Virus record (IMG/VR): IMGVR_UViG_3300010403_000011
Coordinates: 1-48,444 of that record
Source: a virus
DNA: 48,444 nucleotides
Strand: one strand, 5' to 3'
Shown here: positions 2,210-47,744 of the stretch, one piece after another
Numbering within the stretch: the stretch's first letter is position 1
How the letters are laid out: each line of letters opens with the position of its first letter
The notes under the pieces: model-generated
Seen by the model: only the letters and a program-made list of their open reading frames with translations
What the model was told of the DNA's origin: nothing
Databases searched by the model: none
Translations under genes and position numbers: made by a program

Positions 2210-2335
2210 TTAATCCAGGTCTAAGATAGAAGTCTTATCTTCCTGTGCTTCACTGATAGGGTCGATTGTTTCCTCAGTATCTTCCTCTTCATCGTCTAAC
2301 AATTCTTCATCGTCTAATGGAATCATGTTCGTCAT
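2210..2335 (-). CDS. Acidic 41-residue peptide, unknown
   Basis: Begins in an ATGA overlap with the stop of the ATP-grasp gene and ends one base before the M23 gene, so it fits the operon exactly. Nearly half the residues are Asp or Glu (LDDEELLDDEEEDTEE). No domain is recognisable. Acidic miniproteins can mimic DNA or bind basic partners, or could be a substrate for the adjacent ligase; these are only suggestions. Confidence 0.55.
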   Translation of the reverse strand: MTNMIPLDDEELLDDEEEDTEETIDPISEAQEDKTSILDLD

Positions 2336-4164: not shown

Positions 4165-4180
4165 AATATTAACGACCTTT
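4165..4180 (-). promoter_or_regulatory. AAAGGTCG-type element before the basic peptide gene
   Basis: Minus-strand AAAGGTCGTTAATATT, overlapping the stop codon of the large internal protein gene. It is the only late-arm copy of the motif that precedes many early genes, and keeps the same 21-nt distance to the ATG. Confidence 0.5.
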
Positions 4181-9751: not shown

Positions 9752-11269
9752 TTATTGATTACTTGGCTGAGCGTCTGAGGCGGTAACGTCTGCGGGACTT
9801 GCGAACAAACTGCCAAACGGATTCTTCCCCTGGCTTCCGTACATGTTAGCCAAGAACGTATCAGGCAAAACCATCTCCGCATCCTGCCTCACGATATCTT
9901 CTAACTGTTTTTTCATCTCTTCACTCACATTCAAAACAGTTCCATTCAAAGTATCCTGGGTAAACATTCGAGGGTCGATGCCAAGATAAGAACCTATAGC
10001 CACGGGGTTCGAAGCAATCTTCTCAACCGTATTCTTAATCGCAGTTTCCTTCTGGGCCACGAGAGTGGGGTAATCTACCTGCTTATCATTACGAATTCCC
10101 TGGGCGATGTTCTGTCGTTCAGTCCAGAGAAGTCCACCGATAGGGTCTTTCTGAATCGCTTCCAAACCTGAAGTCACATCAGTACGAGTTGCCGACGGGA
10201 TAGAAGTAATGTTCCCTTTAAGGTAGGAACTCAGGTCCTGCGCTCCGCTCCCTGTAGAACCTGAAGGGGTATAAACCTTATTAAGTACATTCCCATTCTG
10301 GTCCATGAAGTAGGTGTAGTCTCCCTTGCTCACGTGATACTTCGCACCTGGACTCCTCAGAGCCTGGGCAACGGTGTCCATCGGAAGGCCTAAGTCGGTA
10401 GCAATCTTTCCAAGCTGCGCCTGAATCTCTGGAGGAAGTTTCGAAACATCCTGTCCGGAGTAGGACTGCATGAAAATATTTAACTTGTTCGACGCCTCTG
10501 TCTGAGTGTCTAACTTTTCCTGACGAGCTTCCTGCTTTCCAGAAAGCATCATGTTGAAAGCCGAAGACATGAAGCTCAACTTATCCTGCATGGCCTGCCT
10601 CTGCATGTTATAAAAATCTAACTTCTGCTGGCGCACCTGGCTCGCATAGGTTGCGTCCTCGTTAGCTAGAGCGGTGTTCTCTTCGTTCGTAAGTCTCTCA
10701 ATCGCAGAAGCAACTCCTTTGTCAAAGGCATTGGAGTTAATCATGTAAGACTCGATGTTGTTCTTGATGGCCGCAGGAGCTAAACCTAAAAGTTCTCCAG
10801 CTCTCTGACGAGAGAACTCTCCCTGCTGGCGAGCGGACTCAATATCCGAGAGTCCTGTCTGATATGTAGTTTGTATATTCTGCCTACGAGCTTGAGAAGA
10901 TATGTACTCAGGTGAAGCCTTCTCAGCGGCAGAACCAGGAGCAGGAGGCGGAGGGAACAAGTCAGAAAGTCCTGCCGTAGCCGCATCTAAATCCTTCTGC
11001 ATGGTAGAGAAAGAAGCTGACATACCTGAGTCAGGCATCACATTCGGAGGAACCGCAGCTCCCGTAGTCGTAGGAGCGGGTCCGGACGTAGGACTTGGTC
11101 TGGTTACAGCGTTCTCAGGGATGTTTAAAGAACCCCCCTGTATGATTAAATCCTTACTCTTGAGCGAAGGGTTATTAGGATTGAGAGCCATCAAAGCATC
11201 AGGAGTTGTCCCATACTGGGAGGCGATAGTTCCTAATGTATCTCCAGGCTTGATAGTACGTGTAGCCAT
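9752..11269 (-). CDS. LysM-domain internal virion protein
   Basis: 505 residues. Residues 1-52 form a LysM domain (TIKPGDTLGTIASQYGTTPDALMALNP...), a peptidoglycan-binding module. The next 60 are Pro/Ala rich, then about 120-260 is charged helix or coiled coil rich in Gln and Arg. It ends 2 nt before the giant internal protein starts and overlaps the adaptor gene by one base. A likely role is a core or ejection protein that holds the wall during DNA entry. Confidence 0.65.
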   Translation of the reverse strand: MATRTIKPGDTLGTIASQYGTTPDALMALNPNNPSLKSKDLIIQGGSLNIPENAVTRPSPTSGPAPTTTGAAVPPNVMPDSGMSASFSTMQKDLDAATAGLSDLFPPPPAPGSAAEKASPEYISSQARRQNIQTTYQTGLSDIESARQQGEFSRQRAGELLGLAPAAIKNNIESYMINSNAFDKGVASAIERLTNEENTALANEDATYASQVRQQKLDFYNMQRQAMQDKLSFMSSAFNMMLSGKQEARQEKLDTQTEASNKLNIFMQSYSGQDVSKLPPEIQAQLGKIATDLGLPMDTVAQALRSPGAKYHVSKGDYTYFMDQNGNVLNKVYTPSGSTGSGAQDLSSYLKGNITSIPSATRTDVTSGLEAIQKDPIGGLLWTERQNIAQGIRNDKQVDYPTLVAQKETAIKNTVEKIASNPVAIGSYLGIDPRMFTQDTLNGTVLNVSEEMKKQLEDIVRQDAEMVLPDTFLANMYGSQGKNPFGSLFASPADVTASDAQPSNQ

Positions 11270-12450
11270 TATCGTGAAGTACGGGCGACCTGCGGGTCGG
11301 CTATTAAGTTATTTGTTTTCTTCTTCGGGTAGCGACGCTTAAAGGTCGTGAGGTAACTATCATACGCTCTCCTCGCCTCCGTGTTATCTATAAGGAATGT
11401 GGGGTCTATAAGAATAGCAGCCTGTAAAGCAATGAGTTCAAGCAGAGAGGGGTCAAAGGAACCAAACGAGAAGAGGTCAGTGGTCGCCGTAAAGGTTTCC
11501 AAGGCCGTGCCGCCTGAAGTGGTTCCGATGTTCGTAGTGTAATACGTCATTATCATCGTGTCAGGAAGTTCGAACCTAAGGAAGTCATAACGGAATCCGT
11601 TAGTAGAAATCAAAGAGCCTGTGTAGTCTAAGTCTAATTTAAAGTATGCGATGTTGGTAACGGTCGGAGAGCCTACGGTGGAAGCACCATTCCATGCGAA
11701 GTCTAACTGGTTCCATCCGACGGCGAGAGCTGAACCATCCACCTGAGTTGTCACTGTAACCTTGTAATAGTTTGAAGAGTCGGTCCCCCAAGAGAGAGAC
11801 GCCGAAGTTAAATTAGTTACGGTGGCTAGATAGGCCCAAATCTTCCCGTGACCAAGGTTGTTCATGGTCGTGAGGTCGTACCCGTTAGAGAAGGTTCTAG
11901 TTAAGGAGGCACGGTTATCCACCGAGAGAGCGGTGTTGATATCAAACTTCAGGGAAGCCTGACCTTCTTTCTTTGTGACTTGGTCGTCTTGGATATTAGT
12001 GGCATCCGAACCTACTGACCAGTTCGTAGAGTTGTTCGCATCAAAGGTATCAATGTCTATCGAAGCTACGGAATTAAGAGCAAGAATATAAGCCGTCCAC
12101 GTACCCGTGGCCTGATAGATACCCCATAAGGAAGTCATTGATTGAACGGAATTAACTCTTTCAAATAACCACTCTGGTAATTTGTAAGAGAACCTCATGC
12201 CCTGGTTTAACTGGTCATCCTGGAATCTCAAAGAGAGAGGCTCGCCAAAATCAGAAGGCAGAGAATAAGTCGGTTGGTCTTCGAAGAAGTTAAACGAGTA
12301 CTCCTTCTCCTGTCCTGGGAGTCCTATCTGGGAAGCAACGTAACGAACGGCAGAATTTATAGCACGAATCCCACGGGCATCCGTGAGGTTCTGGTTGCGA
12401 ACGTAGTCACGAATTGTTGGGAGTACGTCGGAAACAGCGATGGTTGCCAT
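11269..12450 (-). CDS. Head-tail adaptor with inserted jelly-roll-like domain
   Basis: 393 residues. The N-terminal part (DVLPTIRDYVRNQN... AINSAVRYVASQ...) and the C-terminal part (LLELIALQAAILIDP... RAYDSYLTTFKRRYP) resemble the helical head-tail connector of P22- and T7-like phages. Between about 125 and 275 lies a beta-rich stretch (SIDIDTFDANNSTNWSV... GHGKIWAYLAT... FRYDFLRFELPD) with the look of a carbohydrate-binding jelly roll. It follows the tail hub gene and has a TGTTATAAT box 12 nt before the ATG. Confidence 0.6.
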   Translation of the reverse strand: MATIAVSDVLPTIRDYVRNQNLTDARGIRAINSAVRYVASQIGLPGQEKEYSFNFFEDQPTYSLPSDFGEPLSLRFQDDQLNQGMRFSYKLPEWLFERVNSVQSMTSLWGIYQATGTWTAYILALNSVASIDIDTFDANNSTNWSVGSDATNIQDDQVTKKEGQASLKFDINTALSVDNRASLTRTFSNGYDLTTMNNLGHGKIWAYLATVTNLTSASLSWGTDSSNYYKVTVTTQVDGSALAVGWNQLDFAWNGASTVGSPTVTNIAYFKLDLDYTGSLISTNGFRYDFLRFELPDTMIMTYYTTNIGTTSGGTALETFTATTDLFSFGSFDPSLLELIALQAAILIDPTFLIDNTEARRAYDSYLTTFKRRYPKKKTNNLIADPQVARTSR

Positions 12451-20112: not shown

Positions 20113-21006
20113 TTATTTCCACTCAGGAGGATTAAATTTATGAATCAACCAGCCGAGATTATAAATAGCCTTGGGCCACTTTCCGTTAAGCCAGAGGTCC
20201 TGAGAATACTGCCGAGCCTTGTCTTGGTCAGAAGCCTTTATCTCATAAGGGAAACCAAAATCCCCTCCCTGGGTTCGAAACATATGAGAGAACCAAGTCT
20301 TCTTGTTGCAGATTAAACGTCCTCCTGAGAGCCAGGTCTTGCAGGCGATTTCAGTTCCCTGCTGTCCCCAGGAACCGTGCGCTTCGTCTGAACCTCCTAA
20401 CTCGAAATACCATTCACGGTCTAAGAACCAGCAGGCTCCGAGAAGACTCATGGTTTCCACGTAGTCCTCGGTGTGTTTCTTTTCATACTCGTGCCAGTAT
20501 TGGAACTTCAGTTCCTTGTCGAACCTCCAAGCCCAGGTCTTTCGAGACTCCCGTTTCTTCCAGACGAGTTCCTTCGTGGTTTCCTTTCCGCACTCTATAC
20601 ACGGTCCGGAGGGGCTTTGGTATCTCCTGTGTCCTAAAATACAGACCCAATCAAAAGCATGGAGATTATACTGAAGAGGAACCTGGGTAACTTTCCTTCC
20701 GAGTTCTCTGGCGGTCTCTAATAGTTTCAAATCATAACCCTCGTCCAGAGTACAGTGGGCGTCTAACTTCATAATGTACTTTGCCCTAGAGACACGAGCA
20801 GCTTCGTTGATACCCGCCCTCTGCCCGACGGATTTGACGTGATGGATTATAGTGAGACGGGGGTCTTGAGGAATAGGTTCATACGGCCAGTAACCATCTA
20901 AAATAACAATGCACTCGGTATTCCCACGAGACTTGGAAAGAACCTCAGAGATAGTGAGGTTCAAGAACTCTTCGTTACGTGATGGGATGATTACGCTGAG
21001 GTCCAT
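20113..21006 (-). CDS. Family 2-type glycosyltransferase
   Basis: 297 residues from the ATG at 21006, where MDLSVIIPSRNE begins the GT-A fold; the upstream in-frame extension is unrelated to the family. Hallmarks: VIIPSRNE, IVILDGYWPY, YIMKLDAHC (the DxD-like D-A-H motif), LLGACWFLDR. It contains an inserted CxxC (CIECG). Such enzymes move sugars from nucleotide donors. It overlaps the upstream gene by 16 nt and is paralogous to 22153-22920. Confidence 0.85.
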   Translation of the reverse strand: MDLSVIIPSRNEEFLNLTISEVLSKSRGNTECIVILDGYWPYEPIPQDPRLTIIHHVKSVGQRAGINEAARVSRAKYIMKLDAHCTLDEGYDLKLLETARELGRKVTQVPLQYNLHAFDWVCILGHRRYQSPSGPCIECGKETTKELVWKKRESRKTWAWRFDKELKFQYWHEYEKKHTEDYVETMSLLGACWFLDREWYFELGGSDEAHGSWGQQGTEIACKTWLSGGRLICNKKTWFSHMFRTQGGDFGFPYEIKASDQDKARQYSQDLWLNGKWPKAIYNLGWLIHKFNPPEWK

Positions 21007-21629
21007 AGCATGGTTAATAAATCTTCGGCCTTGCCCCAACGGGGTATATCAAAAGCCTTAATAGGACCCAGTGTCTTGCGCTGTCTCTTTTGTCTGTCCT
21101 CTGTGGCATCCTTATGGTTGATTTGAACCAGGCCGATTTCAGAATACCACTCTGTAGACTTCCGAGGAGTGACTCCTAAACCCTTCTCTACACGTTCACG
21201 TCCCAGCTCTCCTGTGAATTCGGGGGGCATCCCAGTAGGGTACTTAGCGAATCTCTCTTCTAATGCCTCTATAAGAAGATTACGGGGGGCTATAAGGGAG
21301 CAGTTGCTCTTCCGATTCCTGATAGAATAAATAGGTTTCCCCCAAGTAAAGAGAGCCCAGCGGTGCTGGTTATATGCAAAGGTATCCAGGGGCGGTCGGT
21401 ATTCAAAGTGTTCCTTGGAATACAGGACATCATCTTCTATAACGGCAACGTAGTCTGTGGTGGCGAGTTTTGCTCCCTCTAACATCTTACGGTAGATTTG
21501 TTCGTAGCCCATCTTCTTATCATCCCGTAAAATTATCATCGGGTAATCCTGGAGTTGCTTCAAATGAAACTCAGCCCACCTCTTGGGAAGTTGTCCTGCG
21601 GTGATGAAAAGTAAAGTAATGTCGTTCAT
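20991..21629 (-). CDS. Glycosyltransferase-like protein
   Basis: 212 residues. ITLLFITAG at the start, YVAVIEDDVLYSKEHF (a DxD-type motif), and SLIAPRNLL later suggest a GT-A-like fold, more divergent than its neighbours. Its ATG overlaps the stop of the methyltransferase (ATGA). Together with two other transferases and a methyltransferase it forms a four-gene glycosylation cassette. Confidence 0.6.
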   Translation of the reverse strand: MNDITLLFITAGQLPKRWAEFHLKQLQDYPMIILRDDKKMGYEQIYRKMLEGAKLATTDYVAVIEDDVLYSKEHFEYRPPLDTFAYNQHRWALFTWGKPIYSIRNRKSNCSLIAPRNLLIEALEERFAKYPTGMPPEFTGELGRERVEKGLGVTPRKSTEWYSEIGLVQINHKDATEDRQKRQRKTLGPIKAFDIPRWGKAEDLLTMLWTSA

Positions 21630-22156
21630 ACTTTTTTAAATTTGGCGTACATAGACTTTCCTTCGGTTACAATCTCCCCCTCTAGTTCGAAGTCTGCGGA
21701 TTCTACAATTTCCTGTAAGCCCTCGGCAGTCCACTCCTGGTAGTGGAACTTATCAGTGAGGGTCCCGTCCGCTTTCTTGGGAGGGGTCACGATGTAAAGA
21801 TATTTCTTAAGAATTCGGCGAGCCTCTCTTAGAGCCTCTCTAGGGAATTCAAAGTGTTCGAGGACATCAATCATCAGGGCGGAATCGAATTGTTCTGTCT
21901 CAAAATCCAGAGCGTAGGCATCTCCTAAAACAACTAGGGCTCCCTTCTCTTGGGCGAGTTGTACAGCTTTGGGTTCGTTATCAACTCCTACAATGCCCAA
22001 AAGGACTGTGATGAGTCCGTCTCCCGCTCCGATATCTAGTACCTTTCTCTCCTTCACCCAGTCTTTAATACGGTCAGCGTGGCGTTTATATCTTCCACCC
22101 TTAGCGTACTGCTTGTGGTGATAGGCTCCGTATTTATCGTACTTGGTGAACTTCAT
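21626..22156 (-). CDS. SAM-dependent methyltransferase, class I
   Basis: 176 residues. VLDIGAGDGLITVLL is the SAM-binding motif I, VGVDNEP is motif II, FDSALMIDVLEHF is motif IV and LKKYLYIVTPP follows. The fold matches small-molecule or sugar methyltransferases (Methyltransf_11-like) rather than DNA methylases; no DPPY or PC motif is present. Overlaps both neighbours by ATGA. It may methylate the sugar added by the flanking transferases. Confidence 0.8.
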   Translation of the reverse strand: MKFTKYDKYGAYHHKQYAKGGRYKRHADRIKDWVKERKVLDIGAGDGLITVLLGIVGVDNEPKAVQLAQEKGALVVLGDAYALDFETEQFDSALMIDVLEHFEFPREALREARRILKKYLYIVTPPKKADGTLTDKFHYQEWTAEGLQEIVESADFELEGEIVTEGKSMYAKFKKV

Positions 22157-22920
22157 AGTCTGAAATATTCCTTGAGTTTAAGATATTCATTCATCCACAA
22201 ACCAAGGGAGTAGGTATCACCAGCGTCCGCTTCTTCTCGTGTGATGTTGTGGGTTCTCTTAAACTTGCGGTCCTTGTGGGCGTACCAAGTGTTCTTGTTT
22301 ACCATCAGCTTCCCACCCGACTGGAATGTTTTCATTCCGATTTCCACAGCCTCCTGTACGAATCTTCCATAGCCCGCTTCCTGGAGTTCTTTGATGACGG
22401 AGTCCCAGTGCTTGCGGGTCATCACCCAACACGAACCTTGGAAGGACATAGTTTCATCCACCATCTTTCCTTTTCGTTCCTTACGTCGGCTTATCCATTC
22501 CTGGGCGTGGAACTTATGGCGGGACTCCATGATGATTAACTTGTCGTAATCAACATACTGGTCCGGCATGACCTCCCATTTCTCGACATCCAACTTGTAA
22601 CGGCGGGGGACAACGACCCAGTTATCTTTTAAATCCTTAGTGAGAATCTGGTCGAAGCCTTTTCCCACGGTACAGTGGGCATCTATCTTCATCAGGTACT
22701 CTCCCTTGGCAAGTGCTATTCCTGCGTTTATAGCGGCTCGTAGGCCCTTATTCTGTCCGAAGTGGATAATGTGTACCCTAGGGTCCTCCTTCATCGTAGG
22801 AGGCCAATAGCCATCAAAGACAGCGATTATCTCTATCTCACCTGTGGCGTTGGCGAGGAGGTTATCAATCGTCTTGTTGAGGTACGGTTCTTTGAAGCTG
22901 GGGATTATAATTGAAAGCAT
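22153..22920 (-). CDS. Family 2-type glycosyltransferase
   Basis: 255 residues with IIIPSFKE, IIAVFDGYWPP, YLMKIDAHC and SFQGSCWVMTRKHW, the same pattern as 20113-21006, so the two are paralogues. The GYWPP and DAHC signatures are shared between them. First gene of the glycosylation cassette; translation linked to the methyltransferase. Possible targets are the Ser-rich fibres encoded downstream or host surface glycans. Confidence 0.85.
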   Translation of the reverse strand: MLSIIIPSFKEPYLNKTIDNLLANATGEIEIIAVFDGYWPPTMKEDPRVHIIHFGQNKGLRAAINAGIALAKGEYLMKIDAHCTVGKGFDQILTKDLKDNWVVVPRRYKLDVEKWEVMPDQYVDYDKLIIMESRHKFHAQEWISRRKERKGKMVDETMSFQGSCWVMTRKHWDSVIKELQEAGYGRFVQEAVEIGMKTFQSGGKLMVNKNTWYAHKDRKFKRTHNITREEADAGDTYSLGLWMNEYLKLKEYFRL

Positions 22921-27713: not shown

Positions 27714-28697
27714 CTAGGCCCCAGCGTTGTAAGCCAAACCTCTCCAGTCCTTCACACCAACCTTGTGTTCAAAGCTGATGTCGTGAGCGAAGACTTTGGT
27801 GTTCTCGTCGAACCATGTTTCGTTCGTTATCGGGCGGAACATGATATCAACTAACGGGGAGAACATACCGTCCACAACGAACCAGCGGCTGTTGCTACCT
27901 CCAGGCACCAAGGTAGAAAGGAACGGAGAAGTGACGAGTGTCCATCCTACCGCCTTCCATACGTTGATGTTGTTGTTAGCAGAATCCACAATCCATTCTG
28001 AATCGATATTCTCTTTGGCCTGTTTCACTTTGGCCGGAGGAACAATGATGTACTTCTGACCTCCACCCATCGGCATCGGCTCACCAATGTCATCGAGCTG
28101 GTTCTGCAAAGTGAGAACCATGTTTTCAATGGAAGTCGGACTGATAGCGGAAGCGGTTACAATGTTGCTCTGTACCGCAGTACCATCTTTACGAGGGTGA
28201 GAAGCGGAAGCGAGAGCCACACCATCACCGTAGTCAAACAATTCCCTGGCGGTGACTACAGAGGCGGCGGTGTTAAATCGGTTGAAGCGGTGGCGAGCCT
28301 TCGTATTTTCGGCCGCTACCTGAAGCTTGGAAGCTTCGTTAAGGGCTTTCTGATACTTGGAGTCACGGCGTTCAGCGGCTTCACGGGTTACTTTAATGCG
28401 GCGAGTGAACTTGAACGGCTCGACAGCAGTAATGAAAGACGGCACGTAATCGGCGGCGATGAATTCCTGAGCCTCACCAGTCGGCTGGAGTTCAGAGACA
28501 CCTGTTACGGAAACCATTTCAGTACGCTGTTTACCGCTAGCGTTCATCTCTTCGAAAAGACCACCTGTCTTATTGGCGGCATCCAGATAGACGTTGGAAT
28601 TATAGGCAGCAAGCTGTTTACCAGCCTGGTCAATAATGTCAGCGAACTCTGCACGCACACCACGCAACAGGATATCAATAGTTCTTGTATTTATCAT
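27714..28697 (-). CDS. Major capsid protein, HK97 fold
   Basis: 327 residues. RGVRAEFADII at the N-terminus, the strand-rich E-loop region (EMVSVTGVSELQPTGEAQEF), FTRRIKVTREAAERR (spine helix), LFDYGDGVALASASHPRKDG, and the C-terminal P-domain block (KYIIVPPAKVKQAKE... DIMFRPITNETWFDEN... GVKDWRGLAYNAG) are characteristic of HK97-fold capsid proteins of Mu/T7-like size. Preceded by the decoration-like and scaffold genes. Confidence 0.9.
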   Translation of the reverse strand: MINTRTIDILLRGVRAEFADIIDQAGKQLAAYNSNVYLDAANKTGGLFEEMNASGKQRTEMVSVTGVSELQPTGEAQEFIAADYVPSFITAVEPFKFTRRIKVTREAAERRDSKYQKALNEASKLQVAAENTKARHRFNRFNTAASVVTARELFDYGDGVALASASHPRKDGTAVQSNIVTASAISPTSIENMVLTLQNQLDDIGEPMPMGGGQKYIIVPPAKVKQAKENIDSEWIVDSANNNINVWKAVGWTLVTSPFLSTLVPGGSNSRWFVVDGMFSPLVDIMFRPITNETWFDENTKVFAHDISFEHKVGVKDWRGLAYNAGA

Positions 28698-30936: not shown

Positions 30937-32952
30937 CTAAAATTTCTGTAATATATTTCCTTCAGCCATTTGTTTGGCGGGGCCCTGGGCTCCGAACATC
31001 TGGCCTCTCATCTGCTGGTTCACGTCCCCCACTCCTGGCATACCGTTAGGGTTCGGGGTTCCTTGGGCTCCTGGTTGGGCGGCCTGCATCTTCCCTCCGC
31101 CGAATCTATCTGATTCGTAGTCCGCTACCACCTCGTCGTTCACTACATCCCCAATGGATTCGCCGAATTTTTCCACAGTCCTGTAAAGCATTTTCTTCGG
31201 GTTTAAAAGATTAGTCTGGCCAAAGAGACGCATGAGGGTCATGACGTAATCTAAGTACAAAGCCCTCTCAGTTTCAGGAGAGTTCTCAATCTCAAAGTTT
31301 ATCTTGATATCAAAACGAATCTCCCTAAGAGACTTCGGGGTCACCTCTATAATTTCAACCTTCTCTTTCTTAAGAAGAGAGCGGAGATAAGATTCTTTCT
31401 TCAGTTCTTCGGGAGGGTTTGGACTATCCGTGATACGGATTTCGTGGTTCCCCATTCCACCGCCGAAGAGTCGGGTCTCTGTAAGAGAGATAATCTTTTT
31501 AAACTTACGTGCGCCGAGAATCTTCTCAGTCTTCATGCTGGTATAGAACTGAATCATGTTCATTATCGTGAGCCACACCTTCTGTTCTAGAAGGTCCTGG
31601 TAGAACATGAAGTAGAGTCCAGAGGCCTCCTTCTTCTCCTGCGAGACCTGGGAATTCTCTGTCGCACTTCGTGGCTGTCGAGACATTGAAGTAGGTCCGA
31701 TACCCCCTGAACCTGTCTTCGTAATGATTCCCTGTAATGTATTTATAGCGTTCCAAGTCGAATTAGAAGTCGGGGAGACCGTTAACTCTTTGTACTGGGA
31801 GGGGTCAGCCTGTACCTGATAAATCCTACCTGCTTTGAATTCAAGTCCCATCTCTACGGAGGGGTCCGTAGTGATTATAGGGGCTGCCACTGAACGCTCT
31901 TCACGCTCTAACATGAGAGAGAACATACGGTTCAGGGCTTCCTGCGGGCTCTTCACCTTCTGAGCGAGAGGCATCCCGTAGAAGAAGTTGGCATCTATAG
32001 GTTCGTAAATAGTTTTAGAGAATGGTAACTTTTTGTGGTTCCACGGAAGGGGGGCGATTTCTTCTCCCTTCTTGGTCTTCATCGGATTGAGAAGAACCCC
32101 GTTCGCTATGATGGCGAACTGGTCCTTGGGGACGTTGTAATATCTAATCACTTCTACGAAGTCCGCACCCCGAATATCGTAGGAAAGAAAATCGGCGAAT
32201 ATTGAGGAGTCGGAGAACTGGGAACCAGGGATGACAAAAGACTCCTGGGAGTAACCTTTGAAGGCGTTTTTAAAGTCACTCCACTTCATGAGAACCCTGT
32301 GGATAAGTTCGTCCTGCTCCTGGATATCAGGCTCCCAAATCTTGGGGATGTACAGGTCTTCGAGGTTTACGGTGAGGTCCTCGATTTCACTGTCATCCAA
32401 TTTTTCTTCCTTGTACTGGGTCTCTCCGCTTGCAGGGTCATATTCTGTTATGGTCTTCACGGTTCTCTCCTTAGAATTGTACGCCGTGAAAACAACCACC
32501 GTCCCGTTTATTATGTTGTACAGGAACTGCCAGAAGTTCGCTATCTTCTTGTTCGAACCCCTTCTCCAATATTCGAACAAGTCCTTAAGAACAGTGGCCT
32601 TTATAATATCAAAACCCTCAACCCCATCGAAGGAGGGCTTCATCTTCATCCCCGCTATCTTCGCTAGGATGGCAATTATCTGGTTCCTTGTTTCAGGAAA
32701 GAAAAACTGCGGAGTATCTGTATCATAGTTTATAGGGAGGTAGCCCCAGAACTTCTTACGGGAATCATCTAAATAAGTCTGAAGGGTTGTATTGTTGAAC
32801 TGCTTATACGGTTGTTCCCTGAGAGACCGCCACTTAATGAACTTATCATACACGGAGTAAATAAACTCCATGGTCTCCTGCGGAGGTTTGTAGAACTCCT
32901 CTAAGAGGATTTTCTTTTTCTCCCCCTTCTCGTACTCATTTCCGTTCGCCAT
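30937..32952 (-). CDS. Portal protein
   Basis: 671 residues. Early part ends in a loop containing YDTDTPQFFFPETRNQIIAILAKIAG, mid-part has HRVLMKWSDF and YYNVPKDQFAIIANG, then FFYGMPLAQKVKSPQEALNRMFSLMLEREER, a helix-stem pattern shared by P22/T7-type portals. The C-terminal 70 residues are Gln/Gly/Met rich. The portal forms the dodecameric DNA channel. Starts in a TAATG overlap with the preceding gene. Confidence 0.85.
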   Translation of the reverse strand: MANGNEYEKGEKKKILLEEFYKPPQETMEFIYSVYDKFIKWRSLREQPYKQFNNTTLQTYLDDSRKKFWGYLPINYDTDTPQFFFPETRNQIIAILAKIAGMKMKPSFDGVEGFDIIKATVLKDLFEYWRRGSNKKIANFWQFLYNIINGTVVVFTAYNSKERTVKTITEYDPASGETQYKEEKLDDSEIEDLTVNLEDLYIPKIWEPDIQEQDELIHRVLMKWSDFKNAFKGYSQESFVIPGSQFSDSSIFADFLSYDIRGADFVEVIRYYNVPKDQFAIIANGVLLNPMKTKKGEEIAPLPWNHKKLPFSKTIYEPIDANFFYGMPLAQKVKSPQEALNRMFSLMLEREERSVAAPIITTDPSVEMGLEFKAGRIYQVQADPSQYKELTVSPTSNSTWNAINTLQGIITKTGSGGIGPTSMSRQPRSATENSQVSQEKKEASGLYFMFYQDLLEQKVWLTIMNMIQFYTSMKTEKILGARKFKKIISLTETRLFGGGMGNHEIRITDSPNPPEELKKESYLRSLLKKEKVEIIEVTPKSLREIRFDIKINFEIENSPETERALYLDYVMTLMRLFGQTNLLNPKKMLYRTVEKFGESIGDVVNDEVVADYESDRFGGGKMQAAQPGAQGTPNPNGMPGVGDVNQQMRGQMFGAQGPAKQMAEGNILQKF

Positions 32953-36256: not shown

Positions 36257-36457
36257 ATGAGATTTCTTACTCGTTTGTTGATGGGTGCTGACCACCGCCT
36301 TCTTTTGAAGCATGGTCACATCGCTCTCAACGGAAGCGAAGTGGAGTTGACTGCAAAAGGTGAAAGGCTCTTGCTCGGTATTCTGTTTGAACAGAATCAG
36401 GCGAAGTTAGTTGAGGTCGTAAAGGCTCAACTCGCAGAGCAGGCTCAGAACGCCTAG
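36257..36457 (+). CDS. 66-residue hypothetical protein
   Basis: MRFLTRLLMGADHRLLLKHGHI, then GSEVELTAKGERLLLGILFEQNQAKLVEVV. Winged-helix-like pattern is possible. Preceded by AATAATAAACAAACC, the A-rich leader common in this phage, and followed by a strong terminator, so it ends a transcription unit. Confidence 0.6.
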   Translation: MRFLTRLLMGADHRLLLKHGHIALNGSEVELTAKGERLLLGILFEQNQAKLVEVVKAQLAEQAQNA

Positions 36458-36505: not shown

Positions 36506-36577
36506 TCCAATTGTCGGTTTTGAGTTCTGGATATACTGGTATGTAGACGATTGGCAGGGTCTACAAGTCAGCAAACA

Positions 36578-36596
36578 AAGGTCGAATAATATAAAC
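36578..36596 (+). promoter_or_regulatory. AAAGGTCGA-ATAATATAAAC element
   Basis: Follows the terminator. GGTCGA ends 20 nt before the ATG at 36606. The preceding AGCAAAC matches the right half of the 13-bp palindrome, so operator and promoter elements may abut. Confidence 0.6.
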
Positions 36597-36605
36597 AAAT
36601 CTGTT

Positions 36606-37328
36606 ATGAGAAAATTCAAAGTTGGAGATATCGTGAAGCTCAAACGGGGAGATGAGTATGAGTGTGGTACGACGAATGGACTTATAGATGATGGTCAGAT
36701 TGAAAGGGAGCAAGTCCGTTTTAAGATTACCAGCATACCTAGCGATGATAACCGTATCGAATACAATATCCTGAGTCCAAAAAACAAGGTATTAGACTGG
36801 TGCGATTGCGTAACGTTCTCTCAAATTGAGCTCGTAGCTGCTGACAAGAAAGAAGGCATAACAGAATCTAAGAAAAGAATCCGCATGGATACACCAATGA
36901 AGAAAGAGGAGGATAAAATCTCCTTTAAGTTGTACAGGAAGGGCGGTTCAACCTTCTTTGCGTTTCAAATCGCTCCGAAGATTGAGAAGGTCTACTCAGA
37001 CCAACCGCATGAGATAAAGGAGTCTACTTCGTGGACGGGTTTAAAGTTCTACTCGATTCCTAAGACCTTGCAGGACGCTGCTTACAAACGGATGTTGCAA
37101 GACTTCCGATTGTTCGATGACTACGGGCAGGGTTTGTATCGGGATGGAATGTTAAACATCGCTTGGATACGAACGGTGGGCGGAAGCGGAGAGATTAAGA
37201 TTACCGAACCGCTTTCTTTCGCTGAACTCAGCTCGTTAGTGCGTAATGCCACTCAGTTCTTGAAGGAGTACTATCAGGAACACTTCCGTGAATTTGTTTT
37301 GCACGGGAAGGTCTCGATTGAAGTGTAA
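36606..37328 (+). CDS. Protein with N-terminal KOW/SH3-like domain
   Basis: 240 residues. The first 80 resemble an SH3-type barrel (FKVGDIVKLKRGDEYECG... VRFKITSIPSDDNRIEYNIL). Residues 105-240 form a second alpha/beta domain (FKLYRKGGSTFFAFQIAP... TQFLKEYYQEHFREFVLHGKV). First gene of the amidotransferase operon. Could be an accessory or substrate protein; no family assigned. Confidence 0.55.
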   Translation: MRKFKVGDIVKLKRGDEYECGTTNGLIDDGQIEREQVRFKITSIPSDDNRIEYNILSPKNKVLDWCDCVTFSQIELVAADKKEGITESKKRIRMDTPMKKEEDKISFKLYRKGGSTFFAFQIAPKIEKVYSDQPHEIKESTSWTGLKFYSIPKTLQDAAYKRMLQDFRLFDDYGQGLYRDGMLNIAWIRTVGGSGEIKITEPLSFAELSSLVRNATQFLKEYYQEHFREFVLHGKVSIEV

Positions 37329-37329
37329 A

Positions 37330-37361
37330 TTTGCTGAGCAAACAAAGGTCGATAATATAAA
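37330..37361 (+). promoter_or_regulatory. Palindrome abutting an AAAGGTCGA element
   Basis: An exact TTTGCTGAGCAAA (37330-37342) is followed after two bases by AAAGGTCGATAATATAA; GGTCGA ends 24 nt before the ATG of the glutamine amidotransferase gene. This is the clearest operator-promoter arrangement in the window. Confidence 0.65.
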
Positions 37362-37376
37362 CCAATAAATAAATAG

Positions 37377-38648
37377 ATGTGTAAATTAGTAGTAGGAATC
37401 AAAAAAGCTGGTAAGAATCAGCAGTTCAATGAGCTTATCTACGCTCAGGAGGTGGGTTTAAAATCCCAGCCCGATGGCATAGGAGCCGTCACCGTTTCTA
37501 AGGACGGAACCGTTGAGGTTTTCAGGGAGTTTAAAGACTACAATGCGGTCTTCGAGAAGGTCTACGAACGCCTGAACGATTCGGTGTTCGTTTCTATCCA
37601 CACACGGATAGGAACCTCAGGAAATAAAGATATAACGAATGTCCATTTCTTTGAGGATAAGAATTACCTGTTCGCTCATAACGGGTTTGTATCTATGTAC
37701 CATCAGGCTCAGTGGAACCTTGGAAGTTCTTCGAGCCACAACCCTCATTCGTGGAATAAAATAGACAGGGATGACTATGATGGCTACGGATACATTAGCA
37801 ACGGTTACGATTATGACCATGGCCACTGGGATGAAGAGAAAAGAGAGTGGGTCAATCCTAAGACCGTTATCATCAACGATATCGAAGAACCGATAGGCGA
37901 AGGGTCAGTTCCTCTCGATGAGAAAAAATTTCTCGCCGAAAAGAACTACATTAACGCCTCCGATGTCTTAGAGAACTGCTATGCCTGTTGTTATTCTCTA
38001 AAGCTTTGTCAGAAGCACTTGGATGTCACCCTGTACTTAAAGGATGACACTCAGGACTTCTTTAGGGCGGTTCTCATTGAGAAGGAGAAGATAATGGCTA
38101 CCAAAGACAAAGAGAAGATATCCAAGATGACTCCTACCTCGATGATTAAGGTGGCGGAATACCTCGTAGCCCTGAGGGAAAAGGAGGGACGGGGACAACC
38201 CCTACTCTTAGAAGGTGTTAAAAAGCTCTCTAAGAAAGAGCGGAAAGCTCAGAAACGAAAGTGGGCGGAGGAAAACACTTCGCCGTTCTGCGATTCATTC
38301 CAGTTTCTTAAGAACATTAAGAAGCCTGTAACCAAAGAGATAATCGAGAGCGAAGTCGAGAGAACCAAGTTCTCTGGCATGGGAATCATCATCAATAAGG
38401 TGACGTTAGAAGCCTCCTTGATGTGCTTTAAGCCCTGTAAAGGCGTGACGGATGGAACCAGCTTCGGCATGTTCTTCTCGTATGACCCAGAGATGGAGTT
38501 CGATGAGGAACGGGATATTGAAACTGAGGTCTGCGGTGTTCCGATGATAGGAGAGGTAAAAGATGAGTTCAAAATCAACCTCCCTGTCTTTGATGTAGTG
38601 GAGGGTGTGCACGAATTAAAAAGGTCGAAAATAAGCAACGACACATAA
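37377..38648 (+). CDS. Class II glutamine amidotransferase (Ntn-type)
   Basis: 423 residues. Met is followed by Cys2, the N-terminal nucleophile of class II amidotransferases. Family blocks: His75-Thr-Arg77 in SIHTRIGTSG, NVHFF, and FAHNG with Asn102-Gly103 in the oxyanion site. These release ammonia from glutamine and channel it to a partner. The C-terminal 200 residues (LSKKERKAQKRKWAEE... ) are a separate charged domain. The adjacent amidoligase is the natural partner. Confidence 0.85.
   Translation: MCKLVVGIKKAGKNQQFNELIYAQEVGLKSQPDGIGAVTVSKDGTVEVFREFKDYNAVFEKVYERLNDSVFVSIHTRIGTSGNKDITNVHFFEDKNYLFAHNGFVSMYHQAQWNLGSSSSHNPHSWNKIDRDDYDGYGYISNGYDYDHGHWDEEKREWVNPKTVIINDIEEPIGEGSVPLDEKKFLAEKNYINASDVLENCYACCYSLKLCQKHLDVTLYLKDDTQDFFRAVLIEKEKIMATKDKEKISKMTPTSMIKVAEYLVALREKEGRGQPLLLEGVKKLSKKERKAQKRKWAEENTSPFCDSFQFLKNIKKPVTKEIIESEVERTKFSGMGIIINKVTLEASLMCFKPCKGVTDGTSFGMFFSYDPEMEFDEERDIETEVCGVPMIGEVKDEFKINLPVFDVVEGVHELKRSKISNDT
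38621..38636 (+). promoter_or_regulatory. AAGGTCGA element inside the 3' end of the amidotransferase gene
   Basis: AAGGTCGAAAATAAGC; GGTCGA (38623-38628) ends 21 nt before the amidoligase ATG. The motif is kept although it lies within coding sequence. Confidence 0.5.
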
Positions 38649-38649
38649 C

Positions 38650-39717
38650 ATGACTAAACTGTTAAAGTTTGGTTTCGAGATTGAAGGAGAGTTCTCGTAT
38701 GACGCTAGGGACTGGCTGGAGACTGAGGGAGTCATCAAATCAGATGGCTCCGTGAAGCTCTGCCGAGAGTCCGAGTATGTTGGAGACTGGCACAAGAATC
38801 ATAGAGGTGCGGACCTTGAGCCAGCCGAATACAACAGCCCCGTCTACACTATCTCCAGTCTTGAAAATGCGAAGGCGTTCTTTGAAGCTCTGCAAAAGAC
38901 TTCAGACAACGGCGGATATCACTGGAACAAGTCTTCTGGGTTCCATATCCACACCTCGTACAGTCCTAAGAAACCGCCTGAGATTATGAGCGAAGAGTTC
39001 GTAACCCTGTTCCTTACCAAGCTTAAGGAGAAATTCCCTACGGAATACGCTCTGCGAGAGGGGAATCGGTTCTGCGAGCCTCATATGACCGAGGATGAAA
39101 TCTATCAGAACAACGGCAACAGATACCACGCCGTTAACATCATGCCTGCTTTAGATAGGCACGGAACTATAGAGTTCCGAATCTTCCCTACGGCTGAACC
39201 CATGAAGATGTTTGAGTTCCTTGAGTTCACTCTTTCACTTATCTTAGAGTGGATTAAAGACCCTAAGTTAGATAAGGACTTCGAGACTAAGCTGCCGAAG
39301 TATCTCCGTCCTGAATACAAAACCTTTGAAGGGAAGGTGTTAAAGAAAGAGCCGACCATTCAAATCATCGAAAGAATTAAGGTGATACGGAGGGACGGAA
39401 AGTCAGAGTGGAAAGAACAGCTCGTGGAGTTCCCTATCTCAGATGTGGATATAGATAAAGCTCCCGAAGGGATATTCAGGGATAGCTTTAAAGTAGGACG
39501 AGGGATTAGGAACAACGACCCCTTCCGATTTCCTATACCGTTTTTCTCCTATAATCCAGGGAAGGAACGGGGGACGTTTGAGAAAACCGATAGCTTCACG
39601 GGTATAGGAGTGTCAGGGGAGTGGATTGGAATATTCCAGCGAGAAGAAATAGAGCACCGATTAAAGGTCGAAGCAGGAGATGAAATCTACGCTCCTGAGA
39701 ATCCGTTCAACCTGTAG
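38650..39717 (+). CDS. Amidoligase (COOH-NH2 ligase, glutamine-synthetase-like fold)
   Basis: 355 residues. Glu10 and Glu12 in FGFEIEGEF, Glu60 in AEYNSPV, His99 and His101 in GFHIHTSYS, and RYHAVNIMP... HGTIEFRIF match the Amidoligase_2 family, which joins carboxylates to amines with ATP. Comparative work on this family has noted links with class II amidotransferases and ATP-grasp ligases. It starts two bases after the amidotransferase stop. Residues 235-355 are a variable C-terminal domain. Substrate unknown. Confidence 0.85.
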   Translation: MTKLLKFGFEIEGEFSYDARDWLETEGVIKSDGSVKLCRESEYVGDWHKNHRGADLEPAEYNSPVYTISSLENAKAFFEALQKTSDNGGYHWNKSSGFHIHTSYSPKKPPEIMSEEFVTLFLTKLKEKFPTEYALREGNRFCEPHMTEDEIYQNNGNRYHAVNIMPALDRHGTIEFRIFPTAEPMKMFEFLEFTLSLILEWIKDPKLDKDFETKLPKYLRPEYKTFEGKVLKKEPTIQIIERIKVIRRDGKSEWKEQLVEFPISDVDIDKAPEGIFRDSFKVGRGIRNNDPFRFPIPFFSYNPGKERGTFEKTDSFTGIGVSGEWIGIFQREEIEHRLKVEAGDEIYAPENPFNL

Positions 39718-39718
39718 T

Positions 39719-40135
39719 ATGTACTACTCAAGAAAAGAATTTGTAGAAAAACTTGCAGGTGCTTTGTCCAGTCAACCAAAGACCGCTCTTAAGAGCCTGG
39801 ATAATCTCGTGAACGAAACTACGGCGAAACAATTAGTGCAGGAAGCTGCTGCTTTGCTGACGATTTTCCAGAAGAACCGAAATATTGTTTTAGATTCTCC
39901 TATTCCGAAAAAAGAATTCAGTCTTAGAGATAGAGTGGTGTTAGCGTCAGACCGCTACACGGATGATAAAACAAATCCTTGGTGGGGAGGTCGTTACGGT
40001 TTCATTATGGGCACTATAATTGAAAGTAATTCAGGAGACTATAGAGTTAGATGGGACAACGGAAAAACTAATGGATACGACATAGGAGACCTGCGGACTC
40101 TAAAAGTTCTCGATAAGAAAGCCAAAAAGCCATGA
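39719..40135 (+). CDS. Protein with C-terminal MIB/HERC2-like SH3 domain
   Basis: 138 residues from the ATG at 39719, one base after the amidoligase stop; an in-frame ATG at 39680 lies inside that gene. Residues 1-60 are helical; 68-130 (LRDRVVLASDRYTDDKTNPWWGGRYGFIMGTI... YRVRWDNGKTNGYDIGDL) match the MIB/HERC2 barrel pattern of W-G-G and VRWDNG. Such barrels bind peptides or proteins, so it may present a substrate to the ligase. Confidence 0.6.
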   Translation: MYYSRKEFVEKLAGALSSQPKTALKSLDNLVNETTAKQLVQEAAALLTIFQKNRNIVLDSPIPKKEFSLRDRVVLASDRYTDDKTNPWWGGRYGFIMGTIIESNSGDYRVRWDNGKTNGYDIGDLRTLKVLDKKAKKP

Positions 40136-40446: not shown

Positions 40447-41131
40447 TATGCCAAGCAGCACACCGAATAATCTAGGTGCTCAAGATAATCGAAGGTTTCA
40501 AGTAACCTGTTGGCACTGTAATACAAGAAATGACTTCTACACGGTTCAAATCCGTTGTCCAAGCTGTGGTGACTGTGTCCTTTATAGTGATGGAAGTCAA
40601 CAGAGAGACATTCAACATATAGAGCCTGTTACCAGCACTAGTTCAACGGATACACTAGGTTCTGGTGGTCATTTCCAATGGCAAGCTAGTCAGGAGCAAT
40701 GGACAATCGCTCCGCCAATTCCAACCTATCAACCCTATCAAGGACTTGCGGGAGGCTCAGGAAGTGTTGCTCCTTCTCATACTATATTGAGAGTTGATTG
40801 TCTTAACTGTTCGCATAATCAGATATATCTTGAAGGTCAATCAAGTCAGACGTGTCGACAATGTGGTTTAGCTTGGACTCCGCTTTCACAAGACTTAAGA
40901 CGTGAAGACGGCTCCTTTATCTATCCACAAAACATACGTATTGATAGAGCTCCCACAGGACAGCAGGTGGTGGATAAGAAGGACATCGCACGGGTCTTAC
41001 ATGAGGTCTTCGACTTCTACTTCCAGTCGAATAGGACGAAGGACTTAGAGGATGAAGTAATTAAAAAGCTGGAGCAGTTCAGCGAGGTCGAGAAGTTTAT
41101 AGAAAGTTATTTCGAGATACCAAAGGAATGA
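40421..41131 (+). CDS. Double zinc-ribbon protein
   Basis: 236 residues. Two ribbons: CWHC...CPSC at about 30-50 and CLNC...CRQC at about 127-148, with a Gln/Pro/Ser linker between. The C-terminal 60 residues are helical (DIARVLHEVFDFYFQSN... IKKLEQFSEVEKF). The start at 40421 overlaps the previous gene and is favoured by the GGTCGA element 24 nt upstream; a shorter start at 40448 is possible. May bind nucleic acid or bridge proteins. Confidence 0.6.
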   Translation: MITQQEHNDMPSSTPNNLGAQDNRRFQVTCWHCNTRNDFYTVQIRCPSCGDCVLYSDGSQQRDIQHIEPVTSTSSTDTLGSGGHFQWQASQEQWTIAPPIPTYQPYQGLAGGSGSVAPSHTILRVDCLNCSHNQIYLEGQSSQTCRQCGLAWTPLSQDLRREDGSFIYPQNIRIDRAPTGQQVVDKKDIARVLHEVFDFYFQSNRTKDLEDEVIKKLEQFSEVEKFIESYFEIPKE

Positions 41132-41553
41132 AAATTCTCTTCTTAGACATCGACGGCGTGGTGAACTGCGAATTTACACACACGAATAACCCTGACTCCT
41201 ACTTCCCCATAGACCCGATGATGGCTTTCCTTGTGGGTCGAATCGTCATAGCTACTGAGTGCGAGGTCGTGCTCAGTTCTTCGTGGCGATACAACGAAGA
41301 GAGTAAGGAAGTGGTCAGGAAGAAAGTATATCCGTTCATAGACATCACACCAATGTTATTGGGTGGAGCCTCACGAGGCACAGAGATTAAAGTCTGGCTG
41401 GACGCTCACCCTGAGGTCACGAAGTATGCCATTCTAGATGACAACCGAGATTTTAGGCTAGAACAAATGCCGAACTTTTTTCACTGTCCCTGGGACACTG
41501 GTCTGACTGAAGAGATAGCTAATAAAGTAATCGAACACCTCAATGCCTCTTAA
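41128..41553 (+). CDS. HAD-superfamily phosphatase
   Basis: 141 residues. Asp7-x-Asp9 in FLDIDGVVN (nucleophile and acid), LSSSWR (motif II), and YAILDDNRDF (acidic motif) with RGTEIKVWL between them resemble the HAD group tied to nucleic-acid end repair and nucleotide phosphatases. Starts in an ATGA overlap with the zinc-ribbon gene. May remove 5'/3' phosphates or act on phage metabolites. Confidence 0.8.
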   Translation: MKILFLDIDGVVNCEFTHTNNPDSYFPIDPMMAFLVGRIVIATECEVVLSSSWRYNEESKEVVRKKVYPFIDITPMLLGGASRGTEIKVWLDAHPEVTKYAILDDNRDFRLEQMPNFFHCPWDTGLTEEIANKVIEHLNAS

Positions 41554-41752: not shown

Positions 41753-41912
41753 TAATCTCATTCTAATCAGTGACGATTATCCTTTGGGTTCTCGTCTCAT
41801 CCCTTTGGAGGTGGAAGAGTTCGTGGCCATCTACAACCTGATTGTGGAGGGCCTGAAGAACCAGCTTCCTGTCATTGAAATCAATGACGATACGCAAACT
41901 CCCGTATCTTAG
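41703..41912 (+). CDS. 69-residue hypothetical protein, converges with terminase
   Basis: MKKITAVLSKGDKDTNNNLILISDDYPLGSRLIPLEVEEF: a strand-rich start followed by helix. Overlaps the previous gene by 50 nt and its 3' end overlaps the terminase gene on the other strand by 32 nt. No terminator is visible between the convergent units. Confidence 0.5.
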   Translation: MKKITAVLSKGDKDTNNNLILISDDYPLGSRLIPLEVEEFVAIYNLIVEGLKNQLPVIEINDDTQTPVS

Positions 41913-43470
41913 TTCCTCCGAGCTGTATATTTACAGCGAAATTTTCCACGGCACTTCTTAAGTCTGCGAACTCGTCGTGCACCGGCTTGTCCAACCTATC
42001 CGAGTTTGAAGAGTTGTCTCGCTGATTCGGATAGACAGAGTTAAGAAGGGCGTCAAAGACATCCAACGCTCCGTACTTGAGTGAAAAAATAGTTGTCTTG
42101 AGCATAGTTTTAGTTGAAGTCCTACGGATAGGGTGCTGAATCGCCTGGTCATTTACTCGTAAGAAGATTCCTATGGCTGCAAGTTCTGTAGCGATTGAAG
42201 TGTTTGACTTCATCTGTTTCATCTTGTGGGCGGGCTCCCCTGCGTACATGATGGGAGCTTTCCAGGTATTGAACCTTCTGATGAGTTCGAGTTCGGTGGA
42301 AAGATAATCCCTCTTCCGAATGGTCATGTTCTCCTTGGTGAACTTGTTGACAATGATGTACTCATCCTGTTCTAAGAAGGTATAGCCCTGCTTAAGGAAG
42401 GGATAATACCAGGAGAGAGGCTTGTTTCTCTTCTCCATGCCGTCCAGACAGAGAAAATTGGTGCTATTCCTTTGCCAATATACGATAGCCGTCTTATCCT
42501 GGCTCCCGAAGTCTAAAGACACGTATAAGGGGAGATTAGGGGCATAATCAAACTCCTCCGTTTTACAGGAAGATACCTCTGGATAATAAGAACGGGTGGG
42601 GTCTGACACATAAGAAATTTCGAGTTCACCCACTACAGAAAGGGCGTCGGAATCTCTACGCTTGAGTTCGTTTTGAAACCACTCCTCGTCTTTGAATGGA
42701 TTCATCTTCCAGTCCAAGGTTAATAGCCAGTTGTTTCGCTCCATGCTTTCTCTCAACTGTCGGGCGAAGGAGGAGGGCTTGGCTGTTGATACAGCGATAC
42801 GACAAGGTGAAGAGTCCACGCAGGCTCTCCAAGATTCACGGGCGAATTTCCAAAAGAATAGTTCATCTAAAAAGATAAAGGAGGCACGGGAACCACGGGC
42901 GAACTCAGTGTTGGCGGATTCCCCGTCCACATAGGCCTGCTTCTCAGGGTTGATAAGCTTCATGTGAATGTCGTGCTCGCTCTTCCTAAAGTTCTGCGGT
43001 CTCATCCACTGAGGAAGGGAGTAGAGCATGTAGCGGAGCCTGCCAAAGAGGGACTGCGGACTTTTATCATCCACTTCTTCCTCCTTTCTGGACCCGACAA
43101 GTCCGTACCACTTATCTTTGAACCTCCACTTCCAAAGAATGTACCAGAGCACCGTCCAGGTCATCATCATGTCTCTAGTCTTCTCGATGAGTAAGTCGTG
43201 GGCATTGTTCTCTGCATCCAGGATTCTGGTTATCGCTTCCCTCTGGTGGGGGAAAAGGAAGAGAGGAATGTCAGGGCTCTCAGAGAGTCGGGGTTCGTAG
43301 ACGACCCCGAAGAGGTCAACGAATACGAAAAAATCCTCGGAGCAATCGACGAGGATATTCATTCTCTCTATGGGGTTGGTCTCCGCCTGCTGTAATCTAA
43401 GCAGCCTGTGGTTTAGCTTCTGCTCGAAGGTAGGAGAAGAAAGATAAGACCTGAGTAACTTAATGTTCAT
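41881..43470 (-). CDS. terL: Terminase large subunit
   Basis: 529 residues. A degenerate Walker A/arginine segment at 96-105 (EKTRDMMMTW, in place of the usual K-S/T-R-Q-M-G-x-S/T-W), Walker B at 198-203 (FIFLDE) with catalytic Glu203, a coupling segment (AVSTAKP) and nuclease Asp320 in YVSLDFGSQDKTA. The C-terminal FDALLNSVYP fits the last nuclease acidic residue. It powers DNA packaging and cuts concatemers. It lies far from the portal gene. Confidence 0.9.
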   Translation of the reverse strand: MNIKLLRSYLSSPTFEQKLNHRLLRLQQAETNPIERMNILVDCSEDFFVFVDLFGVVYEPRLSESPDIPLFLFPHQREAITRILDAENNAHDLLIEKTRDMMMTWTVLWYILWKWRFKDKWYGLVGSRKEEEVDDKSPQSLFGRLRYMLYSLPQWMRPQNFRKSEHDIHMKLINPEKQAYVDGESANTEFARGSRASFIFLDELFFWKFARESWRACVDSSPCRIAVSTAKPSSFARQLRESMERNNWLLTLDWKMNPFKDEEWFQNELKRRDSDALSVVGELEISYVSDPTRSYYPEVSSCKTEEFDYAPNLPLYVSLDFGSQDKTAIVYWQRNSTNFLCLDGMEKRNKPLSWYYPFLKQGYTFLEQDEYIIVNKFTKENMTIRKRDYLSTELELIRRFNTWKAPIMYAGEPAHKMKQMKSNTSIATELAAIGIFLRVNDQAIQHPIRRTSTKTMLKTTIFSLKYGALDVFDALLNSVYPNQRDNSSNSDRLDKPVHDEFADLRSAVENFAVNIQLGGTKIREFAYRH

Positions 43471-46668: not shown

Positions 46669-46908
46669 TTATATATTTGTTTGTAATGCTTCGACCTTTT
46701 CTGGTTTATTTGTAACGTAGTAGTGGCAGTTCTTCTTTTTGCTGAGCAAAGTACTGCCCTCCATGGTGGTTCTGAATTCCCAGCCCGCCTTCTTCAACTC
46801 AAAGATGACGGCTCCTAACCTCAAGGTGATGTAGTTATCCACGCACCAGAAGTTATCCACGTAACCTACCTCGTTGATTCGGTCGATGACTTTTTGTTTG
46901 TTCGTCAT
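46669..46908 (-). CDS. HTH-like small regulator
   Basis: 79 residues. KQKVIDRINEVGYVDNFWCVDNYITLRLGAVIFELKKAGWEF has the spacing of small winged-helix domains common in phage early genes. Overlaps the preceding gene by ATGA. An exact 13-bp palindrome lies within its coding sequence (46738-46750). Confidence 0.55.
   Translation of the reverse strand: MTNKQKVIDRINEVGYVDNFWCVDNYITLRLGAVIFELKKAGWEFRTTMEGSTLLSKKKNCHYYVTNKPEKVEALQTNI
46689..46698 (-). promoter_or_regulatory. AAAGGTCGA element before the zinc-finger gene
   Basis: Minus-strand AAAAGGTCGA with GGTCGA ending 30 nt before the ATG at 46660, followed by ACAAACAAATATATAAACAAACAA. The motif lies in the 3' end of the HTH gene. Confidence 0.5.
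46738..46750. promoter_or_regulatory. 13-bp palindrome TTTGCTGAGCAAA, intragenic copy
   Basis: Exact copy inside the HTH-like gene, on the same strand orientation (G centre on plus) as the other five. Confidence 0.5.
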
Positions 46909-47744
46909 ACTTCTAATTTCTTACGTTGATGCCATAACCTTTGTTTCTCCTGATGTTTTTTCCAAAGGACGGGGTTACCTCTGATTTCCCAGTATCTCTT
47001 GCTCTGCTTCACCCTTTGTTTTCTATAGTACTCCTTCCTCCGAACGGGGTCCTCCATCAACTTCTCAAGATATTTTGCCCGCCTATCGTTAATTCCTTTT
47101 CTCCATGCTGCATATCGAACAGGGTCTTTCTTTATTCTCGCAACCATCTTCCTGTAATGAAGACGTTGGCGTTCTACTAACTTATTCCACTTCTCTGGGG
47201 AACTCTTAGCCCTCTGATAGTAGGCATCGGTCGCTCTCTTCTGAATCTCCTTGGCCTTTTCTGGATGCCTAGCAGCCCACGAATTCACAATCTTTTCATG
47301 ACACTCCTTACAGGGAGAGGAATAAAAGATATCGGTCCGGTCTTTGTTCTTGTAGTGCTTATAGAACTCTGAGACTGGCTTCTTGGTCTGACACTTATGG
47401 CAGAACACGACGCCGGATTTTATTAACTTTTCCCTGCCGATTTTATTTAATCGGAGACGGCACTTAGGTTCACAAAACTTTCGGGGAAACTTCCCTATAG
47501 AAACAATGATGTTCTTACATTCGGGGTTCTTACACGAAGCTTCGTACTGCTTTTTTGGTAACTTGTAATGCTGAACGTACTTCCCTGTTTTGTTTAGTAA
47601 CTGACGGATTCTTTCTCTTGAAACTTTAAATCTCTCGCCGATTTTTTCCAGAGTCCAGAGCTCCTCCATGTACAGGTAGAGCATCTCAGCTAGCCTCTTC
47701 TTTTTATCCTTCTCACTTATCCAATATTTGTTTGTATTGTACAC
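46905..47744 (-). CDS. Zinc-binding protein with sigma-region-4-like HTH
   Basis: 279 residues from a GTG. Residues 30-53 (TLEKIGERFKVSRERIRQLLNK) match the region-4 helix-turn-helix of sigma-70 factors, which contacts -35 DNA. Two Cys4 zinc sites follow: 71/76/91/95 and 115/118/145/148. The last 100 residues are basic with repeated Y/W-R-KxP motifs. It may be an atypical transcription or recombination factor. Preceded by a GGTCGA element at 47775-47780. Confidence 0.6.
   Translation of the reverse strand: MYNTNKYWISEKDKKKRLAEMLYLYMEELWTLEKIGERFKVSRERIRQLLNKTGKYVQHYKLPKKQYEASCKNPECKNIIVSIGKFPRKFCEPKCRLRLNKIGREKLIKSGVVFCHKCQTKKPVSEFYKHYKNKDRTDIFYSSPCKECHEKIVNSWAARHPEKAKEIQKRATDAYYQRAKSSPEKWNKLVERQRLHYRKMVARIKKDPVRYAAWRKGINDRRAKYLEKLMEDPVRRKEYYRKQRVKQSKRYWEIRGNPVLWKKHQEKQRLWHQRKKLEV

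Follow-up and report, generated by a model that had tools for sequence, protein, structure and literature searches.

A divergent class II amidotransferase gene adjoining an Amidoligase_2 gene in an uncultured phage resembles known phage cassettes

The DNA analysed here, referred to as the window, is a whole linear IMG/VR viral record of 48,444 bases from an uncultured phage. Most genes between 262 and 34116 run leftward and include the recognisable virion genes, and a rightward run of genes extends from about 34.2 to 41.9 kb. Inside the rightward run, two open reading frames separated by one base encode proteins of 423 and 355 aa, in that order, for which the sequence-only reading had proposed a class II glutamine amidotransferase and an amidoligase (Table 1). 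The same rightward operon contains a gene at 41128-41553 (+) with a HAD_SAK_2 phosphatase-like domain (PF18143, E=1.7e-24), a family whose name refers to RNA repair proteins. Among the virion genes, the region 20113-22920 (-) encodes a methyltransferase, two family-2 glycosyltransferases and a weak third, and these glycosyltransferase genes could possibly serve glycosylation of the virion or the host surface.

Table 1. Features of the window discussed in the text
Feature	Position	Strand or run	Remarks
M23 peptidase	1636-2208	leftward run	adjoins the ATP-grasp candidate
Probable PurD-like ATP-grasp	2332-3708	-	among late virion genes; fold search of single-sequence model
LPD38	4179-9749	leftward run	
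LysM	9752-11269	leftward run	
SU10-type adaptor	11269-12450	leftward run	score slightly under cut-off
Capsid protein	27714-28697	leftward run	virion gene
Portal-like	30937-32952	leftward run	virion gene
AAAGGTCGA	36577..36585	+	29 nt before KOW-like gene start
KOW/SH3-like N-terminus with conserved C-terminal domain	36606-37328	+	third gene of conserved block
AAAGGTCGA	37344..37352	+	33 nt before amidotransferase start
Putative divergent class II (Ntn) glutamine amidotransferase	37377-38648	+	independent phage profile and motifs
AAAGGTCGA	38620..38628	+	30 nt before amidoligase start, inside amidotransferase gene end
Predicted Amidoligase_2, COOH-NH2 ligase of glutamine-synthetase-like group	38650-39717	+	PF12224, PHROG 2443, phage profiles
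AAAGGTCGA	39663	+	
Downstream operon gene, barrel-like by eye	39680-40135, probable start 39719	+	PHROG 11307
Large terminase	41881-43470		
AAAGGTCGA	30364, 46699, 47783	-	

The amidoligase gene was placed in the family proposed for it. Its product matched PF12224 (Amidoligase_2) at E=8.2e-10 with 39.4 bits where the cut-off is 22, PHROG 2443, labelled 'amidoligase', at E=7e-7, and profiles of other phage amidoligases. The GxEIE, GxHxH and EFR motifs conserved in Amidoligase_2 are all kept, and in an alignment of seven phage amidoligases the segments FGFEIEGE, GFHIH and EFRIF fall on the invariant G/E/E, G/H/H and EFR columns. Judged by its sequence, the protein is a genuine member of this family, for which ligase activity is predicted.

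The amidotransferase gene gave sub-threshold Pfam matches to GATase_4 (E=0.039) and GATase_6 (E=0.051), with 13.3 and 14 bits against cut-offs of 23 and 27, and a PF13522 search of the window's own open reading frames left it without a match. Because the Pfam score was under the cut-off, a separate profile was built from ten other phage amidotransferases, leaving out the window and its relative L002 (IMGVR_UViG_3300043540_000468), and was run on the 287 open reading frames of at least 60 residues in these two records. It matched residues 1-109 of the window protein (E=1.1e-12) as well as the L002 gene (E=3.4e-9), and the next-best frame reached E=2.1. Alignment with the ten phage amidotransferases showed that Cys2, H75/R77 and H101-N102-G103 are kept, so that the class II assignment made from the Cys2, HTR and HNG motifs is borne out by an independent profile, with Pfam remaining sub-threshold. 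A half-profile for the second half of the Ntn domain scored at shuffle level. Residues 330-380, which had been read by eye as this second half, received no support from the half-profile test, and a complete canonical domain is not supported, its second half being undetectable by profile. The HNG motif is followed by a long insert or extension with a CxxC..CxxH cluster at residues 201-214; a Tyr/Asp-rich stretch and the cluster are found between the domain halves in both the window and L002 amidotransferases. Structure prediction from the two sequences gave a pLDDT of 33. We read the gene as encoding a divergent class II glutamine amidotransferase recognisable only in its N-terminal half (residues 1-109), whose activity is not assured because the C-terminal half is unrecognisable and the structure model is poor.

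The gene upstream of the pair had been called KOW/SH3-like. This label is plausible, as the L002 copy matches the SH3-C_UBE2O model at E=0.004, a score under the cut-off. The gene downstream of the pair matched only PHROGs labelled as of unknown function (PHROG 11307, E=1.3e-5), and the MIB/HERC2-like barrel suggested for it was not supported, PF06701 giving no match to 39719-40135. The element AAAGGTCGA occurs in 7 copies in the window, where 0.53 would be expected, a number that none of 100 shuffles attained. The majority are placed about 25-56 nt ahead of start codons that belong either to the operon or to two leftward genes, and the element is possibly a promoter or leader element; it was not seen ahead of the same genes in L002. 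One of the genes that it precedes, 46905-47744 (-), encodes a protein whose sigma-70 region 4 domain scores above the PF04545 cut-off, and such a phage sigma-like factor might read the element.

L002 was the sole relative found by the large terminase of the window, with which its own is 62% identical. It carries a block of the KOW-like gene (38% identical to that of the window), the amidoligase (42%) and the amidotransferase (32%) that is syntenic with the window except that the order of the pair is reversed, and both enzymes of the pair are shorter than those of the window (274 and 341 aa). Conservation of the three genes at these identities despite the order swap argues for selection on the set. 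The 66-aa gene at 36257-36457 also has an L002 homologue near the terminase (phmmer E=1e-4). Upstream of the L002 block, positions 6237-7022 (-) of that record encode a beta-solenoid protein that weakly resembles MinC_C/FapA (E about 1e-5, under cut-off). In wider searches, tblastn of both window proteins against 50,697 phage records gave no match at E<0.01, viral contigs scanned for exact peptides of either protein alone gave none either, the same scans with two-sequence alignments recovered L002 alone, and a scan of genome contigs found none. The L002 amidotransferase had a weak tblastn match (E=0.9) to the gene beside the amidoligase in MW202637.

The association of the two families was surveyed in 80 viral loci picked by similarity to gut-phage and Porphyromonas-phage amidoligases, blind to their neighbours. 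In 50 of the 80 loci, and in 35 of the 59 clusters formed at 90% identity, the amidoligase is followed immediately on its own strand by a class II amidotransferase, as counted with a profile that includes the gut-phage neighbour and in loci that come from one amidoligase subgroup and in some cases end at contig ends. The spacing of the two frames ranges from -184 to +635 nt, and the amidotransferases are short, with open frames up to 273 aa. Among the 3864 open reading frames of the surveyed loci, all 50 amidotransferase matches were neighbours of the amidoligase. A gamma-glutamyl cyclotransferase was found within 3 kb in 12 of the 80 loci, and a RimK-type ATP-grasp in none (flanks read to about 4 kb). 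Pfam confirmed all of the neighbours sampled, eight amidotransferases and two cyclotransferases. The linkage of amidoligase and amidotransferase across phages is real and general. Since both window proteins were placed in their families and relatives carry the two genes together, in L002 as well as in the surveyed loci, the amidotransferase-amidoligase part of the sequence-only reading stands.

Amidoligases of the glutamine-synthetase-like group spend ATP to activate a carboxylate, which they then join to an amine; in class II amidotransferases, an N-terminal cysteine frees ammonia from glutamine or cleaves a related amide. On balance, the window pair is probably a functional minimal member of the known phage amidoligase-amidotransferase cassette, divergent and with its gene order reversed. 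The amidoligase would join an ATP-activated carboxylate to an amine, and the N-terminal cysteine of the amidotransferase would hydrolyse glutamine or a gamma-glutamyl amide. The pairing of the genes suggests either that the amidotransferase feeds ammonia to the ligase or that ligase and hydrolase act as a couple, the amidotransferase trimming or recycling the ligase product. We infer in this way that the two proteins work together, and likewise which way the reaction runs and what it acts on. The target would most likely be either a small metabolite or a host-envelope carboxylate of gamma-glutamyl or peptide type. To the host envelope as the target, where gamma-glutamyl or stem-peptide carboxylates would be the favoured sites, we give less than half the confidence that we place in the functional pair. 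Changing the target during infection would hinder competing phages or divert host metabolism. Phage pairs are widespread, as the survey demonstrated, and the idea of peptidoglycan alteration and superinfection exclusion is based on gene context; in the literature, the peptidoglycan proposal is reportedly credited to Iyer et al. 2009 and Hardies et al. 2013. Peptidoglycan or peptide modification by larger related cassettes is a published hypothesis, according to which such phage genes change the peptidoglycan of the host and keep other phages out (PMC5498523, PMC6256558, PMC10580990, PMC11318856).

Several other readings of the pair were weighed. It could serve scavenging or redox functions, making or recycling a gamma-glutamyl (glutathione-like) compound or freeing amide nitrogen for phage nucleotide synthesis, which we consider unlikely. 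The cyclotransferases near 12 of the 80 viral amidoligases fit this reading, nitrogen metabolism has been suggested for a similar gene set (PMC10945688), and glutamate-cysteine ligase is a weak match for the L002 amidoligase (E=0.006); however, this match is far under the cut-off and no other gene for glutathione or nitrogen metabolism was identified in the window. It is also unlikely that the pair acts on a protein by amidation or conjugation, with the KOW-like protein as substrate or adaptor of a peptide-tagging or other protein-modifying system. The KOW-like gene still adjoins the pair in L002 though the pair order changed, and protein-tagging enzymes exist among glutamine-synthetase-like amidoligases in general, but this gene was present in only two phages and absent from the other loci examined, and the C-terminus of its product has no evident tag motif. 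That the KOW-like protein, amidotransferase and amidoligase constitute a three-part protein-modification module distinct from the envelope-modifying cassette, with the CxxC..CxxH insert binding a partner, appears highly improbable. The amidotransferase could instead be a degenerate or non-enzymatic relative of the family, as its undetectable second half, large insert or extension and sub-threshold Pfam scores would allow; retention of Cys2, HxR and HNG between the window and L002 proteins at 32% identity speaks against this, and we regard it as improbable.

A third enzyme, a PurD-like ATP-grasp ligase encoded at 2332-3708, had also been assigned to the system. Its gene is about 34 kb from the pair, on the opposite strand and within the virion-gene run, and the assignment of the pair to early genes and of this gene to late genes was read from strand only. 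The protein had no match in Pfam, PHROG, NCBIfam or PDB sequences, and no relatives of it were found. A single-sequence AlphaFold model was confident only at about residues 135-206 (about 70 residues); in a PDB fold search with this model, PurD/GAR synthetases came first (best E=3.7e-3, prob 0.97, a local match with TM-scores of about 0.14), and nearly all of the top 50 matches were ATP-grasp or related enzymes. Going by the model, the protein is probably a PurD-like ATP-grasp, and the fold proposed for it is likely. ATP-grasps usually carry an E-x-N metal motif, at whose usual position this protein has the segment GEYCPNR (residue 298), so its metal site could be a different one. When compared by profile with the LUZ24 cassette's RimK-type ATP-grasp, the protein showed no detectable relation. 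A three-enzyme pathway with an early and a late step, to which the clustering of ATP-grasp, amidoligase and amidotransferase in LUZ24, phiEco32, RIO-1 and PA11 and the M23 peptidase gene next to 2332-3708 would lend some weight, is very improbable, since cassette ATP-grasps are RimK-type and adjacent, whereas this candidate is PurD-like by fold, distant, on the other strand and without relatives, and no RimK-type enzyme was found near any of the 80 viral amidoligases; the ATP-grasp was therefore rejected as part of the pair module.

The preferred reading, a functional two-gene pair, can be set beside the described systems. Phages LUZ24, UFV-P2, phiEco32, PA11 and RIO-1 and their relatives carry an amidoligase, an amidotransferase, a COOH-NH2 ligase and a RimK-type ATP-grasp (PMC3890496). 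Like the window, the LUZ24/phiEco32/RIO-1/PA11 cassette has Amidoligase_2 and class II amidotransferase genes that share an operon within the rightward or early genes. It adds the COOH-NH2 ligase, the RimK-type ATP-grasp and, in most cases, a gamma-glutamyl cyclotransferase, whereas none of these was recognised adjoining the window pair: a Pfam scan of seven operon genes found no COOH-NH2 ligase (PF14395), RimK-type ATP-grasp or cyclotransferase, and ATP-grasp and cyclotransferase profiles had no match over the window. The window amidotransferase also differs from the LUZ24-type protein in its long insert, and both window proteins are too distant from the LUZ24-type ones to be linked by tblastn; in hhalign comparison of the single pair from LUZ24, the amidoligases aligned at E=2.4e-5 and the amidotransferases at E=4.6e-5. 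Also comparable are the two-gene pairs of uncultured phages (MT835576, L013; MW202637, L011; and the 50 IMG/VR loci), in which the same families are adjacent on the same strand and, as in the window, an ATP-grasp was not found nearby. In these pairs the amidoligase comes first, in contrast to the window, where the amidotransferase does, and the amidotransferases of the 50 loci reach at most 273 aa compared to 423 aa in the window. The comparison suggests that amidoligase and amidotransferase form the core, to which the ATP-grasp and second ligase are optional additions, and the two-gene version is the simplest unit for testing the chemistry. The pairing is already common in phages and published, and the window contributes one small, divergent example of it.
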